Positions 6,692 through 33,915 of a DNA stretch of 64,000 nucleotides are shown one piece after another (position 1 is the stretch's first letter; each line of letters starts with the position of its first letter). The translations under genes and the position numbers were made by a program. The notes below the pieces were generated by a model. That model worked only from the letters and a program-made list of their open reading frames with translations, was not told the DNA's origin and did no database searches. Source of the stretch: Paucibacter sp. TC2R-5 (GTDB lineage Bacteria > Pseudomonadota > Gammaproteobacteria > Burkholderiales > Burkholderiaceae_C); assembly GCF_025717605.1 (NCBI RefSeq), contig NZ_JAJIRQ010000002.1, positions 515,884 through 579,883 of the forward strand, written 5' to 3'.

Positions 6692-6821
6692 GGGAGCTCA
6701 GTGTGGCATGAGCCCGAGTGAATTTGGGCCAACTGTGCAAGCGCAAAAAATGTTCACGCGTTTCTTATTCATAGCAATTCAATCTTTTAACTTAGTAGTC
6801 TTAGTAGAGCGGGCTTGTTTC

Positions 6822-6830
6822 TGTGGATAA
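6822..6830 (-). promoter_or_regulatory. DnaA box A1 (perfect)
   Basis: TGTGGATAA on the plus strand, TTATCCACA on the minus strand, an exact match to the TTATNCACA consensus. It is part of an 11-base string CTGTGGATAAG found three times in the two modules (6821, 6940, 11122). Confidence 0.8.
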
Positions 6831-6940
6831 GCCAAATTTATCTTGACGCCACAAGCACTTAGCTTGTTTCAAACCATGTGGGCGAAGCCCTCTTGCTGCT
6901 GTCACTCAAACAGGAACAACTTTCAAATTTCAGCCCACCC

Positions 6941-6949
6941 TGTGGATAA
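6941..6949 (-). promoter_or_regulatory. DnaA box A2 (perfect)
   Basis: Exact TTATCCACA on the minus strand, 119 bases from box A1 and in the same orientation. Confidence 0.8.
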
Positions 6950-6968
6950 GGTCTGGCTTGATCTTTTT

Positions 6969-6977
6969 TTATCCACA
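6969..6977 (+). promoter_or_regulatory. DnaA box A3 (perfect, opposite orientation)
   Basis: Exact TTATCCACA on the plus strand, facing box A2 with 28 bases between their starts and a T-rich spacer between them. Confidence 0.8.
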
Positions 6978-7231
6978 GCCTTGTTCATTGACAACATCTG
7001 GTCGACCCGGTAGCTAGCCCCGCCAGACCAAAATAAAGCCAACAGCTACGCTGTCCCCGACGTGACAAGCTTTTCGAGCGGCTCCTCTAAATTGACATAA
7101 ATCCCGTGTATGGGCGCCACAGATGGGGATAAACCCCGGCGAGGAAGCGGGTCCGAGTCGATAGAGTGAAGCAGCGCTGCAAGCCAGGATGGTTTGACAG
7201 TCAGGTGCAGAAATAAGCAGGAGACAACACC

Positions 7232-8377
7232 ATGAAGAAGTTTCACATCACCCTTTTGGCGCTTGCGGGCAGTTTGCTCGTCAGCGCTTGTGGCGGCGGC
7301 AGCAGTGCCGATACCACGCCTGCCGTGTCCATCACGGCGGTCAAGGTCTTCGGCGACAGCCTGGCTGACTCGGGCACCTTCGGGCTCAAGTTCACGGTGC
7401 AAAGCCCGGACAGCTTGATCTACCCCGAGCGCATTGCAGCGGCCTATGGCCAGACCCTTTGCAATTTCTACACCTTTACCGGCGTGACCTTCGCCCCGAA
7501 TCCCAAGGCCGGTTGCAGCAACTTCGCCATCGGCGGCGGTGTGATCAATTCAGCCAGCTTGGCCGCAGCCGACCCACGCCGCGTGCCGGTTCAATTGGCA
7601 ACCGCAGCAGCCGTGGGCAGCTTCAGCCCCACCGACCTGGTGGTGATCGACGGCGGCGGCAATGACGCTGCCGACCTGGTGGGCGCCTACCTCACTATCC
7701 CCAGAGACGGCGGCGCGGCCTATATGAAGCTGCTGGGCACCCTGCTGACGCCGGCACAGGTCGGCGCGATCATGAGCGGCGGTGCAAGCACCATTGCAGC
7801 GGGCGGCGCCACCTATATGCTGGCCCTGGCCGATCTCTTCCATGCATCGATCAAAGCCAATGTGTTGGACAAATCAGCGCAGCGCGTCGTGATTCTGAAC
7901 ATGCCCAGCATCACCAACACCCCACGCTTTCAAATGGTGTTGGACGGTATAGCGGCCGCTTCGGGCGGCGGCACAGCAGGTGCAACGGCACGCGCCCAGT
8001 CGGACGCTTTGTTCAGATCCTGGATGACGGCCTTCAACAAGCAGCTGGACAGCAAATATGCCGGTGAAAGCAAGGTGGCGATCGTTGACTTCTATTCCGG
8101 CTTCAATGATCAAGTGAACTTCCCCGCGCAGTTCAGCCTCAGCAATGTGAAGACGCCTGCTTGCCCAGCGACAGGCATGGGCGCTGATGGCTTGCCGACC
8201 TACACCTTCGAAACCTGCACGGCCAAGGCCTTGTCGGCTGCACCGCCTGCCGGCGTCAGCGGCGCCGATTGGTGGAAGAGCTATGCCTTCTCCGATGGTT
8301 TCCACCCCACGCCCTATGGCCATCAGTTGTTGGGTCAGCTGGTTTCCAAGGCCATCGCCATCAAGGGTTGGCTGTAA
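7232..8377 (+). CDS. GDSL/SGNH-family esterase lipoprotein
   Basis: 381 residues. A lipoprotein signal ends LLVSAC with the lipidated Cys at 20, followed by a Gly-rich linker. The SGNH hydrolase blocks are clear: FGDSLADSG (nucleophile Ser about 43), the Gly of NFAIGG, GGGND (about 141-145), and DGFHPT with the catalytic Asp and His about 355-358. The family hydrolyses esters or lipids; this one should be anchored in the outer membrane or periplasm. A good AGGAGA precedes the ATG by eight bases. OmpW follows 31 bases downstream, suggesting one transcript. Confidence 0.92.
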   Translation: MKKFHITLLALAGSLLVSACGGGSSADTTPAVSITAVKVFGDSLADSGTFGLKFTVQSPDSLIYPERIAAAYGQTLCNFYTFTGVTFAPNPKAGCSNFAIGGGVINSASLAAADPRRVPVQLATAAAVGSFSPTDLVVIDGGGNDAADLVGAYLTIPRDGGAAYMKLLGTLLTPAQVGAIMSGGASTIAAGGATYMLALADLFHASIKANVLDKSAQRVVILNMPSITNTPRFQMVLDGIAAASGGGTAGATARAQSDALFRSWMTAFNKQLDSKYAGESKVAIVDFYSGFNDQVNFPAQFSLSNVKTPACPATGMGADGLPTYTFETCTAKALSAAPPAGVSGADWWKSYAFSDGFHPTPYGHQLLGQLVSKAIAIKGWL

Positions 8378-8408
8378 AGCGCGGCCGAGCATCAGGAGCA
8401 TTCACACC

Positions 8409-9077
8409 ATGAAAAAATATCTCTTCTCCCTGAGCGCGATCGCTGTTTTCGCAGCCGGCGCAGCACAAGCCCAAACCGTTGGCAGCTTCACAGTTCGACT
8501 CGGCGCCACGACGATCCGGCCGGCCGTCAGCAGCGGCGATCTGTCGGCACCCAGCCCCGCTGGCACCAAGGTTGATATCAACAATTCCAGCCAAGTCACC
8601 GGTGGCATTTTTTACATGTTGACCGAAAACATCGCCATCGATGTGCCCGTCGGCATTCCGTTCAAGCACGAAGTATTGGGCGCTGGCGCGATTGATGGCA
8701 CGGGCAAGCTGTCCGATGTCAAGGCCTTGCCCATCACCGTCACGGCGCAATACCGATTCGGCGCCCCCACCAGCATGTTCCGGCCCTTTGTCGGCGCGGG
8801 TGTGACCTATGCGGTGTTCTCCGATACCAAGGCCACCTCTGTGCTCTCCGGCATTACCGGCGGCTTGCCGAGCAATCCGACCACCATGTCGATGAAGAAC
8901 TCCTTCGGCCCGACCGTGCAACTGGGTCTGGACATGAAGCTCTTTGATCGCTGGTCGCTCAATGTCTCCGCCACCAAGGTGATGTTGAAAACGACCGGGT
9001 CCTTGTCCACCGGTCAGACCATCGAGGTTGAACTGAACCCGATGGCCTATTCATTCGGAGTTGGCTACACCTTCTAA
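8409..9077 (+). CDS. ompW: OmpW family outer membrane protein
   Basis: 222 residues with a Sec signal peptide cleaved after AQA (about residue 21). Alternating hydrophobic strands and the last residues YSFGVGYTF, ending in Phe, mark an eight-stranded outer-membrane barrel. OmpW members form a narrow hydrophobic channel for small hydrophobic molecules. The sequence contains the typical ALPITVTAQYRFG and FRPFVGAGVTY segments. The start at 8409 is chosen over an upstream in-frame start because the signal peptide begins there. A terminator follows directly. Confidence 0.9.
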   Translation: MKKYLFSLSAIAVFAAGAAQAQTVGSFTVRLGATTIRPAVSSGDLSAPSPAGTKVDINNSSQVTGGIFYMLTENIAIDVPVGIPFKHEVLGAGAIDGTGKLSDVKALPITVTAQYRFGAPTSMFRPFVGAGVTYAVFSDTKATSVLSGITGGLPSNPTTMSMKNSFGPTVQLGLDMKLFDRWSLNVSATKVMLKTTGSLSTGQTIEVELNPMAYSFGVGYTF

Positions 9078-9101
9078 GTGCTGCTCGTTCCGGGCTGAAG
9101 A

Positions 9102-9127
9102 AAGGGAGCCTTGGGCTCCCTTTTTCT
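9102..9127 (+). terminator. Rho-independent terminator after ompW
   Basis: GGGAGCC and GGCTCCC form a seven-base stem with a three-base loop, followed by a run of T (9121-9125). It closes the GDSL-ompW unit. Confidence 0.88.
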
Positions 9128-9137
9128 ATTCAGCTCA

Positions 9138-9773
9138 TCAGGCAATGCCGATGACCTTGTGCATCTGCACCGAGAGACGCCACTGCGGGTGTGCCATGCA
9201 ATAGGCGACCGCCTCGCAGGTGTGCTGGGCCTTCAGAATGCTGTCCATCGGTTGCAAGAAGAAATGCTGAAAGCCCATAGCTTCGAAGCGCTCGGGCCGC
9301 GCCAAGGGCTGTGGAAACACCAGTTTCAGCTCATGGCCATGCGTCAGGACCATCTCGGCATCGGCCTTGGGGCTGACGCAGATCCAGTCCAGGCCCGCCG
9401 GTGCAGGCTGGGTGCCATTGGTTTCCACCGCAATCTCGAAGCCGCGCGCATGCAGCGCGTCAATCAAGGCCGGGTCGATCTGCAACAAGGGCTCTCCGCC
9501 GGTGCAGACGACATAGGGCTTGCCGGCTACACCTGTTGGCCATTTGGAAGCAATTGAATCAGCCAGTTCTTCAGCAGTACTGAACTTGCCGCCACCCTCA
9601 CCATCGGTGCCTATGAAGTCGGTATCGCAAAACGTGCAGACCGCTGAAGTGCGATCTTCTTCCCTGCCGTTCCAAAGATTGCAACCGGCAAAGCGGCAGA
9701 ACACCGAAGCACGACCGGCTTGAGCGCCCTCGCCTTGCAAGGTGTAGAACATTTCTTTCACTGCGTAAGTCAT
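9138..9773 (-). CDS. queE: 7-carboxy-7-deazaguanine synthase
   Basis: 211 residues, a radical SAM enzyme that converts 6-carboxy-tetrahydropterin to 7-carboxy-7-deazaguanine in queuosine synthesis. The [4Fe-4S] cluster Cys are C31, C46 and C49, spaced CX14CX2C as in the structurally known Burkholderia enzyme and unlike the usual CX3CX2C. The N-terminal FYTLQGEG, the CTGGEPLLQ strand and VETNGT are present. It follows the queD-like gene by nine bases and is surely cotranscribed. queC is not in the window. Confidence 0.94.
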   Translation of the reverse strand: MTYAVKEMFYTLQGEGAQAGRASVFCRFAGCNLWNGREEDRTSAVCTFCDTDFIGTDGEGGGKFSTAEELADSIASKWPTGVAGKPYVVCTGGEPLLQIDPALIDALHARGFEIAVETNGTQPAPAGLDWICVSPKADAEMVLTHGHELKLVFPQPLARPERFEAMGFQHFFLQPMDSILKAQHTCEAVAYCMAHPQWRLSVQMHKVIGIA

Positions 9774-9782
9774 GCTGATCCT

Positions 9783-10889
9783 TCAGACCGGAATTACCGG
9801 CCCCTCAATATCCGCACTGACGATGGACCCGCAACCGCGCGTTTCATACATATCGACACGGTCCAATTGCGGCAGCACAGCCCGGCCCTTGGCCAGCACC
9901 CAGGCGGCCAGGCTGGCGGTGTCGCCATCGGGCAGATCGGCAATCTCGAACAGCGGCCGGTGATCGATCGCCTTGAAGATCGGATCGAACTGTGTCTTGA
10001 CGTCACCAAAGTCAACCGTCCAACCCATCAGCTGATCTAACTCGGCACTCAGGTGCAAGCGCAGCGTGTAGGTGTGGCCGTGGATGCCGCGCAGCGGGTG
10101 CTCGGTGGGCGCGCGCTTGAGCTGGATGGCGCTGTCCAATGTCAGCTCCTTCCAGATGCGGTAATTCTTGCCATCGAAGTTCGCACCACAGGAACCGGTT
10201 TCGTATACCGTCAGCCATGAGAGCTCGGGCAGCTGCGGCTTCATACGCGCCCACAGCCAAGCCGAGATGACCTCGCTGGTCGGGTTGCCCAAGCCTTCGA
10301 TCTCGTTCAGGCAGTGGTAGTTGAGCAGCATATGAAACGGCGCCCAGACTTCATCCAGATGGTCGTAGTCAACGCTCAGATCACGCTCGCCTAAATCCTG
10401 ATTCGCATGGACGATGACCTCGAAGCCATGGCCATGCATGCGGCCGCATTTATGCCCCGGCGGCACATTGGGTAGTTGGTGCGCCGCCTGGAAGCGATAG
10501 CGCCGCCAGACATGAGCCATGCCATCGGCGTCCAGATCGACGCCCGAATGTTGCGTGCTTTGAATGCCGACCTGCTGAATACCGGGCACGCCGAACTCGG
10601 TCTCCAAGCGTTGCTTGATCCAGCGTGCGATGTTCTCGTCGGTCGGCTCGGCGATCGAATGGTTGAGCAGGGCGTGATCCAAGGGTGCGGCGCAAGCTTC
10701 CAGGCGGCGGCGTAGCTCTTCCACCTCCGCACCCGGAAAAGGTGCCCAGTCGGGCGGCAAATGGGCTCGGATGGTGGCGAAATAGCTGTGGCCGTGCAGG
10801 CCGCGACTGCGGTGGCCCTCGGGCAGCGCGGAGATCTGGCAAGCAGACTCGAAGCTGCAGGAGGCGGAGTAAATCGTTTGAGTGCGCAT
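9783..10889 (-). CDS. queD: Three-domain 6-carboxytetrahydropterin synthase (QueD-like)
   Basis: 368 residues, three times the usual QueD length of about 120. Three tandem T-fold units are visible. The middle unit (about 128-245) has the full zinc triad H137, H152, H154, the catalytic Cys148 in GHKCGRMHGHG and the substrate Glu in VYETGSCG. Unit 1 (about 5-125) keeps LHGHSY and LDHALLN but has Cys17 where the first zinc His should be, and no catalytic Cys. Unit 3 (about 248-360) keeps GIHGHTY and MYETRGCG but lacks the first His (DSAIQL). The reaction makes 6-carboxytetrahydropterin, the substrate of QueE encoded next. Confidence 0.88.
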   Translation of the reverse strand: MRTQTIYSASCSFESACQISALPEGHRSRGLHGHSYFATIRAHLPPDWAPFPGAEVEELRRRLEACAAPLDHALLNHSIAEPTDENIARWIKQRLETEFGVPGIQQVGIQSTQHSGVDLDADGMAHVWRRYRFQAAHQLPNVPPGHKCGRMHGHGFEVIVHANQDLGERDLSVDYDHLDEVWAPFHMLLNYHCLNEIEGLGNPTSEVISAWLWARMKPQLPELSWLTVYETGSCGANFDGKNYRIWKELTLDSAIQLKRAPTEHPLRGIHGHTYTLRLHLSAELDQLMGWTVDFGDVKTQFDPIFKAIDHRPLFEIADLPDGDTASLAAWVLAKGRAVLPQLDRVDMYETRGCGSIVSADIEGPVIPV

Positions 10890-10949
10890 GAATATCGTGC
10901 CGGCCGGCGAGGCGGGCTGGTTTGAGCCTGAAAAGCAGCGCTCTGTATC

Positions 10950-11175
10950 TATCTCCTTATTGTAATTTTTATACTTGGTAGTCGTAGTGGTGCAGGCCTG
11001 TGGCTGTGGGTAAGTGCAGTTTTCTCAGTCGATTCAAGCACTTGGATGCGGCCAAACAATGTGGGCCAATGTGCCTGAACATTCGCATGGGCAGATAACA
11101 ACTTTGCAAAACGAGACTGAGCTGTGGATAAGTCAACGGTTGTTCAAATGCTATCCACAGCTTTGTGCACAGCGA
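10950..11175. other. Origin-like DnaA-box module B (diverged copy of A)
   Basis: An AT-rich stretch (10952-10973), degenerate triplets (10974-10990), a GC-rich segment and box-like sites at 11005-11013 (TGTGGGTAA, one change), 11123-11131 (perfect), 11151-11159 (CTATCCACA, one change) and 11163-11171 (TTGTGCACA, one change). Aligned without gaps to 6791-6890, 65 of 100 bases match by my hand count, and distances between landmarks agree to the base up to AAAC.ATGTGGGC (11054). It fills most of the 295-base gap between the queD-like gene and the methyltransferase. Confidence 0.55.
11123..11131 (-). promoter_or_regulatory. DnaA box B2 (perfect)
   Basis: Exact TTATCCACA on the minus strand, 118 bases from the degenerate first box and 28 from the third, the same geometry as in module A. 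Confidence 0.75.
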
Positions 11176-32473: not shown

Positions 32474-33850
32474 CTATTTACCTATACAGAACTTGCTGAA
32501 AATTTCCCCGAGCAGTTCATCGGCGGAGAAGTTGCCGGTGATTTCGCCGAGTGCGCCGTGTGAAAGGCGCAACTCTTCGGCGAGCAGATCCAGCGCCGGG
32601 GGCTCCTGGTGGGCGACGCTCAGAGCCAGGGCTAAATGCTCGCGCGTGCGCTTGAGGGCCTGTACATGGCGTTCGCGGGCAATGAACAAGCCTTCCGGCG
32701 TGGCGTGCCAGCCGACTTGTTGCAGCAGGCGCTGGCGCAGTTCGGGCAGGCCCGCACCCGACTTGGTCGACAGCAGCAGCGCAGCCTCGGGCAGGCCGGT
32801 CACCACGGCCGCATCGGCCTTGTTGAAGACCTGCAAGATGCGCTCAGCTGGCACGTCGCCCAAGCGGGCCGAGATCAGTTTGTCTTCGGCTTCGTAGTCG
32901 GCCTGGCCGACGCGGGTCAGGTCGTGCATGAAGAGCAGCACGTCTGCGTCGGCGATTGCCTCCCAGCTGCGCGCCACGCCGATGCGCTCGACTTCGTCCT
33001 CGGTGTCGCGCAGGCCGGCGGTGTCGCTGATGTGCAGCGGCACGCCTTCGATTTGAATCGTCTGGCTGACCTTGTCGCGCGTGGTGCCTGGGATCGCTGT
33101 GACGATGGCCAGCTCGGCGCCGGCCAGGGCGTTCAAAAGCGAGCTTTTGCCCACATTGGGCTGGCCGGCCAGCACCACCTTGATGCCTTCGCGCAAAAGC
33201 GCGCCCTGCTGCGTGCGGTCCAGCACGGCTGCTAACTTGTTCTGCAAGCGGGCCAAGCGGCCCAGCGCGTCGGCCTGCTGCAGGAAGTCGATTTCTTCCT
33301 CGGGGAAATCCAGCGTCGCCTCAACCAGCATGCGCAGCTTGATCAACTCATCGCGCAGCTCGCTGACTTCTTTGGACAGCGCGCCGGCCAAGGCGCGGCC
33401 GGCGCTGCGGGCCGCCGCCTCTGTGCTGGCATCGATCAGGTCGCTGACGGCCTCGGCCTGCGCGAGGTCGAGTTTGCCGTTCAAGAACGCGCGTTGGGTG
33501 AACTCACCGGGCTCGGCCAAGCGAATACCCATGGCAGCTCCCGCCTCCATGCAGCGCGCCAGCAGCAGCTGCAAGACTACAGGCCCGCCATGCGCTTGCA
33601 GCTCCAGCACATGCTCGCCGGTGTAGGAATGGGGTGCAGGGAACAGGAGTGCCAGACCCTGGTCGATGGCGACGCCGTGGCCGTCGAGAAAAGGCAGATA
33701 GCTTGCCTCGCGTGGCCGTAGCTGGCGCGCACAGATGGCGTCAATCAGCGGGCTCAGTTCTTGCGGGGAGGAGACGCGCACGATGCCGACCGCTCCGCGT
33801 CCGGGGGCGGTGGCGATAGCGGCGATGGGGGCTTGGCGGGAGGACAGCAT
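32474..33850 (-). CDS. mnmE: tRNA modification GTPase MnmE
   Basis: 458 residues. It works with MnmG to add the carboxymethylaminomethyl group to wobble uridine of tRNA. The N-terminal tetrahydrofolate-binding domain starts [19 protein letters not shown], the GTPase G1 is [14 protein letters not shown] (about residue 230), G3 is DTAGLRDT, and the protein ends with FCIGK, the Cys-containing C-terminus of the family. The start is at 33850 (MLSSRQAP). In many bacteria mnmE lies near the replication origin with rnpA and yidC; those genes are not here. Confidence 0.95.
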
Positions 33851-33915
33851 GCGAGGATTCTCGCTGATGCTACTTAGATATGAACCGGCGCCGGGCCGTC
33901 CCAAGCCGGTTCAGC

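Follow-up and report, generated by a model that had tools for sequence, protein, structure and literature searches.

The window analysed here, a stretch of 64,000 nucleotides from Paucibacter sp. TC2R-5, very likely contains the chromosomal replication origin (oriC) of a Roseateles/Paucibacter-type betaproteobacterium, made up of two copies of one module that point the same way and are separated by ∼4.2 kb. This assignment is based on a GC-skew switch, a parS cluster, low duplex stability, conservation of the module in 296 of 300 family genomes, and its location just downstream of dnaA in three relatives. The anatomy and position of the two copies, their conservation, and the constraint on both are shown. 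There is no wet evidence, and the start of replication and the binding of DnaA are inferred. Our confidence applies to a two-module oriC, and not to independent firing of each module. As a very probable oriC, the locus would be of the ordinary DnaA/unwinding type; what is new is the presence of two complete modules, which are 2–7 kb from each other in the genus and do not have dnaA between them.

Anatomy of the two modules

The first module (copy 1) contains three perfect TTATCCACA DnaA boxes within window positions 6752–6985. Measured from start to start, box 1 is 119 bp from box 2 and 147 bp from box 3 (119/28 spacing), and boxes 2 and 3 point toward each other. On the minus strand, to the left of box 1, CTACTAAG is seen twice by eye, followed by AT-rich DNA. 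Read 3' to 5' from box 1, after 14 nt, the triplets are GAT GAT TCT GAT GAT. The AT-rich flank is the least stable 60-mer of the window by nearest-neighbor energies (rank 1 of 63,940, starting at 6745).

A second, diverged module (copy 2) is located at 10,949–11,171 and was found by allowing one mismatch in the boxes, which start at 11,005, 11,123 and 11,151 (118/28 spacing, compared to 119/28 in copy 1). The two copies can be aligned over ∼220 bp, and, by the same energies, the flank of copy 2 ranks second in instability among the separate sites of the window. The features are as follows.

6745–6807, plus strand: copy 1 AT-rich unwinding element (DUE), ending in DnaA-trio-like triplets (6793–6807); from the least stable 60-mer, triplet parsing and the family consensus
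6808–6821, plus strand: copy 1 spacer between triplets and box 1, 14 nt, G+C-rich in its left half only; from the sequence
6822–6830, minus strand: copy 1 DnaA box 1, perfect; box search, 119 bp to box 2 in 15/15 genus loci
6849–6861, plus strand: copy 1 IHF-like position, with a fixed offset of 27 from box 1; a poor match to the consensus (3 mismatches by eye)
6941–6949, minus strand: copy 1 DnaA box 2, perfect; box search
6969–6977, plus strand: copy 1 DnaA box 3, perfect, facing box 2; box search
6775–6991, plus strand: copy 1 module as matched by HMM (E=1.3e-45), with a MazG-like gene on one side and a GDSL lipase gene on the other (by Pfam)
6992–10948, no strand: the ∼4 kb between the modules, with GDSL lipase, OmpW, radical-SAM (QueE-like) and triple-PTPS genes; local cumulative-skew minimum at 10,050
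10928–10987, plus strand: copy 2 AT-rich DUE, second least stable separate site; the degenerate triplets GAT GCT GAT come next, the first 17 nt from box 1
11005–11013, minus strand: copy 2 DnaA box 1, TTACCCACA, 1 mismatch; box search
11123–11131, minus strand: copy 2 DnaA box 2, perfect; box search
11151–11159, plus strand: copy 2 DnaA box 3, CTATCCACA, 1 mismatch; box search
10949–11171, plus strand: copy 2 module as matched by HMM (E=8.6e-37), with a PTPS (QueD-like) gene on one side and a methyltransferase gene on the other

The original prediction, made without database searches, had described three perfect boxes 119 and 147 bases apart, two of them facing, and, on the minus strand, repeated TAG-type triplets followed by AT-rich DNA. 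Both descriptions held, the former by box search and the latter by reading the sequence by eye. The GC-rich spacer it described held in part, being G+C-rich in the left half alone. The second module at 10,949–11,171 and the skew switch inside the window had been overlooked.

Two other features of the region were noted. The QueD-like protein encoded at 9783–10,889 is a single chain with three PTPS stretches. The word AACAACTT occurs in both modules (6915–6922 and 11,097–11,104), and the family alignment shows it to be a conserved element that separates box 1 from box 2. It is not a DnaA box and could be a site for another protein.

The triplet and IHF-like elements were examined across 129 modules. 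At least three GAT among five triplets were found in 117 of them, compared to 0.3% of shuffles. At least three consecutive NAN triplets were found in 57 modules, while 32% of shuffles also pass, and the strict consecutive-trio rule is thus not discriminating. The published rules for the basal unwinding system (BUS) call for three or more consecutive DnaA-trios and a box within 16 nt of the triplets (PMC8287927). Neither window copy has three consecutive triplets: copy 1 has two in a row (four GAT of five), and copy 2 has one, with two in-register GAT that are interrupted. Unbroken runs are present in many relatives. The box-to-triplet distance of copy 1 (14 nt) is inside the 16-nt limit, while the first GAT of copy 2, at 17 nt, is just outside. 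The best match to the IHF word lies at offset 27 in 106/129 modules, and the word is present with no more than one mismatch in 66/129 modules, compared to 15/129 when shuffled.

Conservation in the genus and the family

The module is present in 18/18 genomes of the genus, in exactly two copies in 13 of them. Copy 1 adjoins mazG in all 15 fetched loci, and copy 2 adjoins queD in all ten fetched two-copy loci and in the window. The modules are 2–7 kb apart in the genus, with no dnaA between them; in two of the two-copy genomes (G001 and G003), the two matches are on separate contigs. The distance between boxes 1 and 2 is exactly 119 bp in 15/15 copy-1 loci and 118 bp in 11/11 copy-2 loci, window included. 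All 11 copy-2 sequences from the genus group together (96/94); the duplication is therefore older than the split of these genomes. Three genomes (G012, G015 and G017) have copy 1 and queD, with the region on one contig, and lack copy 2, which is thus dispensable in them. Two others (G011 and G016) are fragmented, at 76% and 79% completeness.

The constraint on the two copies was assessed over 11 loci at 76 informative columns, which were defined outside the genus. The fraction of these columns that agree with the family consensus is 0.900 for copy 1 and 0.867 for copy 2. When the two copies of one genome are compared with each other, their identity is 0.862 at informative columns versus 0.361 at uninformative ones. 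Thus, neutral positions are near saturation, while those that bear function have been held in both copies. The copies were found by similarity to the same profile, which somewhat favors the informative columns. This pattern indicates that the duplication is old and that selection acts on both copies.

Some variation in box position was seen among the copy-2 modules of the genus. In four loci (L074, L077, L079 and L081), boxes 2 and 3 are separated by 40 rather than 28 bp, which adds roughly one helical turn, and L071 and L078 have boxes at both positions. Orthology of copy 2 beyond the genus was considered and is not supported, as the two R. subflavus copies fall outside both the copy-1 and copy-2 groups of the genus.

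An HMM trained on 110 distinct modules, all from outside the genus, matches both window copies. At E values of up to 0.1, it has no matches in the reversed control, and there are none in the 20-kb stretch with dnaA. A second model (R1), built from 50 rows, of which seven are from the genus and include both window copies, has matches in 296 of the 300 family genomes that are at least 95% complete, representing 114 of 115 genera. Its only matches in the source genome are the two places in the window. The original prediction would have been refuted by many copies of the module scattered in unrelated intergenic regions, and this refutation failed. Two or three R1 matches are present in 105/300 family genomes; this count includes many second matches without a position, and stricter filters may lose some of them. 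Other pairs in the family include a tandem pair ∼0.3 kb apart at dnaA (R. toxinivorans), inverted pairs ∼20 kb apart (G324 and G382), and a direct pair 3.7 kb apart (R. subflavus).

A strict three-box pattern was found in 52/399 family genomes (27/141 genera), with no control matches. A slightly stricter pattern, run against 84,980 species genomes, returned 104 stretches, all but one of them Burkholderiales or betaproteobacterial by name. The lone exception (L206) is a Limnohabitans-like origin module on a contig labelled as an Akkermansia muciniphila MAG, and is likely to be a mis-binned betaproteobacterial contig. In an order-wide sample, matches, mostly weaker, were found in 48/120 genomes, four of these 48 being family members. 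Two genomes from a different family of the order (G421 and G466) have two to three weaker module matches within 0.4–1.6 kb of each other; given these, repeated modules are possibly not confined to the family.

The location of dnaA was searched for in 22 module-bearing family genomes, a set drawn from pattern matches and not at random. In three of them (G078, G189 and G199), the module is just downstream of dnaA. In 18, the two share a contig at a distance of 16–593 kb, and in the remaining one they are on different contigs. In complete genomes (G303, G314, G324, G382, G024, G004 and the Comamonas genome G411), dnaA is ∼40–180 kb from the module, and it lies near coordinate 1 in G303, G314 and G324.

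Skew, parS and the position of dnaA

GC skew in the source genome was measured on samples, not on full contigs. Along the 729-kb contig that includes the window, skew is negative in 14/15 samples to the left of the window and positive in 5/5 to the right. The sign changes inside the window, where six of the last seven eighths are positive. The exception on the left comes from the far end of the contig, whose first 20 kb have positive skew, possibly due to a rearrangement or an arm boundary. As the original prediction stated, there is no dnaA or dnaN in the window; the single DnaA match of the genome and a DnaN gene are on another contig. On that contig, skew is positive in 19/20 samples, on both sides of dnaA, and the single non-positive sample, a small local dip (−0.002, with halves of −0.024 and +0.019), is the one that holds dnaA. 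A skew switch elsewhere had been named as a refutation of an origin at this locus; this too failed, since the sampled switch is at the locus and not at dnaA. The mnmE gene that the original prediction placed 26 kb away is confirmed by Pfam (32,474–33,904).

The same relationship is seen in several relatives. In the complete genome G004, 10/11 samples at 3.9–4.32 Mb are negative and 6/6 at 4.34–5.02 Mb are positive. Its two modules, at 4,324.1 and 4,329.7 kb, bracket the cumulative-skew minimum of the 4,319–4,339 kb interval (4,325.0 kb), and dnaA is 96–102 kb off, at 4,228 kb. Skew also switches clearly at the module rather than at dnaA in G303 and G250, the latter with dnaA 593 kb away amid positive skew. 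The switch at the module is weak but in agreement in G411 (Comamonas), G324 and G024. Skew in G382 is noisy, and its sign change, if any, is near dnaA. Between the two copies, the pooled skew is −0.006 (left −0.051, right +0.021), varying per genome from −0.032 to +0.042. These values give no verdict on which copy fires; they are compatible with mixed use, without proving it.

The parS word forms a single cluster per genome in 10/10 genomes, with no control matches. In the source genome, this cluster is 20 kb from the module, and dnaA is on another contig (at least 380 kb away). In the other nine, the distances are 5–94 kb from parS to the module and 53–624 kb from parS to dnaA. Overall, parS is nearer to the module than to dnaA in 9/10 genomes, the tie being G189, where the module adjoins dnaA. 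A search for dif using an E. coli-like consensus with up to three mismatches found no site in any of the 10 genomes.

The locus thus has a skew switch, at least three intergenic DnaA boxes, an easily melted AT-rich element, and parS at 20 kb, all marks of an oriC. One usual but non-defining mark, an adjacent dnaA, is absent, dnaA being on the other contig. The original prediction had left open an origin, a DnaA-titrating or -reactivating locus, or a regulated promoter, and separate lines of evidence support the first of these.

Possible roles of the copies and alternative explanations

Every molecular step of the mechanism proposed here is inferred from the known BUS and from E. coli-type origins. 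DnaA would bind box 1, which adjoins the unwinding element, as well as boxes 2 and 3 at the opposite end of the module, and an IHF-like bend may join box 1 with the latter two. A DnaA filament would then extend from box 1 across the spacer onto the triplets, melting the AT-rich flank. Two helicases would load in the opened flank, giving bidirectional replication. A fork from one module would cross the other, 4 kb away, within seconds, and, if both fired, a single bubble would result; two competent modules would thus be expected to behave as one robust origin. That either module is able to start a round is a further guess, about as likely to be wrong as right.

The order of elements (DnaA box, spacer, GAT triplets, AT-rich DNA), the 3'-GAT-5' triplets, and the 14-nt spacer of copy 1 resemble the BUS of Bacillus subtilis (PMC8287927, PMC6669920), a system predicted in 1755 of 2070 oriCs (PMC8287927; PMC6669920). 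However, the modules differ from it in the interrupted triplet run, the three boxes at a fixed 119/28, the fixed IHF-like position, and the presence of the complete module twice. Similarities to the oriC of Escherichia coli (PMC4285127) include the DUE, a box pointing the same way, an IHF site, more boxes, and an opposite terminal box. E. coli oriC is also located away from dnaA. Unlike E. coli oriC, the locus has a triplet-type unwinding region, a compact three-box module, and two copies with four genes between them.

Bipartite origins (B. subtilis, Mollicutes and Helicobacter pylori) have the DUE in one subregion and a total length of up to ∼2 kb, and their spacer is usually dnaA (PMC4285127). 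As in these origins, the DnaA boxes of the locus form two distinct clusters, separated by DNA or genes. However, a DUE and triplets are found in each half (degenerate in copy 2), the halves are homologous, and they are separated by 4 kb with four other genes (2–7 kb in the genus), with dnaA elsewhere. The locus is therefore not a bipartite origin in the described sense. Gao (2015) states that evidence for a bacterial chromosome with two functional origins was lacking, and proposes candidates (PMC4403523). The putative double origins of DoriC share the idea of two oriC-like regions per chromosome, but the cases considered are far apart or belong to duplicated dnaA regions, and none of them is the homologous pair described here (PMC4403523). 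Origins distant from dnaA were already known (PMC10225481, PMC6323995). We found no paper on the replication origin of this family in the literature searched, which leaves out most subscription journals. The locus provides a natural, conserved pair of complete origin modules, for which single-copy sister lineages can serve as controls, and the motif model locates a probable oriC across a large family in which dnaA is an unreliable marker.

A bolder reading is that the genus has two autonomous, complete oriCs side by side, older than the split of the two-copy genomes. The same reading, taken jointly, includes further pairs elsewhere in the family, in tandem (0.3 kb), direct (2–7 kb) or inverted (up to tens of kb) arrangements, with an origin that moves within the family and is decoupled from dnaA. 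We consider this less likely than not. If true, natural bacterial chromosomes with two firing origins exist.

The strongest alternative to two competent modules keeps the locus as oriC, but has only one module firing (copy 1, which is nearer the consensus), with the other acting as a satellite that collects or loads DnaA, comparable to the second half of a bipartite origin or to a titration site. The weaker boxes and triplets of copy 2 in the window, and its absence from G012, G015 and G017, where copy 1 is kept, favor this explanation. On the other hand, copy 2 keeps the DUE, the box geometry, and on average 0.867 of the informative positions of the family consensus, and no titration site is known to require an unwinding element. 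The single-firing model remains a serious possibility, which we rate at a little short of an even chance. In R. subflavus, the queD-side copy scores 138 bits and the mazG-side copy 111 bits, indicating that the stronger copy can change.

It is very unlikely that the locus is not an origin at all, and instead titrates or reactivates DnaA or contains DnaA-regulated promoters of mazG, the lipase gene and queD. Both modules are intergenic and beside gene starts, as this explanation would have it. However, the skew switch and parS are at the locus and not at dnaA, the module adjoins other genes, or dnaA, in other genera, and the duplex stability is the lowest in the window.

It is likewise very unlikely that the usual dnaA region is the working origin, with the locus as a relic. 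A perfect box 61 bp upstream of the dnaA ORF (C41:156,856), the small skew dip at dnaA, and the module beside dnaA in some relatives are in its favor. Against it, there are no module matches at dnaA in the source genome, skew is positive along the contig on both sides of dnaA, and parS is 20 kb from the locus, on a different contig from dnaA.

A chance cluster of DnaA-box words, for which the only argument is that TTATCCACA is no more frequent in the genome than the same word reversed (17 vs 22), is all but excluded by the probability of ∼2e-11 for three perfect boxes in 156 bp, and is refuted by the conservation of the module in 296/300 genomes and the lack of control matches to the three-box pattern in 399 genomes.

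The underlying counts are as follows. The window has 10 DnaA boxes with up to one mismatch, versus a shuffle mean of 3.86, and none of 100 shuffles reaches 10. The whole genome (5.13 Mb) has 17 perfect boxes, compared to 22 for the reversed control word, and four of the 17 lie within 4.3 kb at the locus. The Poisson probability of at least three perfect boxes in 156 bp is 2.3e-11.

Box-like words were also observed by eye in a dnaA-rpmH-rnpA region (L036, 18,800–19,750), where a perfect DnaA box lies upstream of dnaA with several such words beyond it. These may be related to autoregulation of dnaA.
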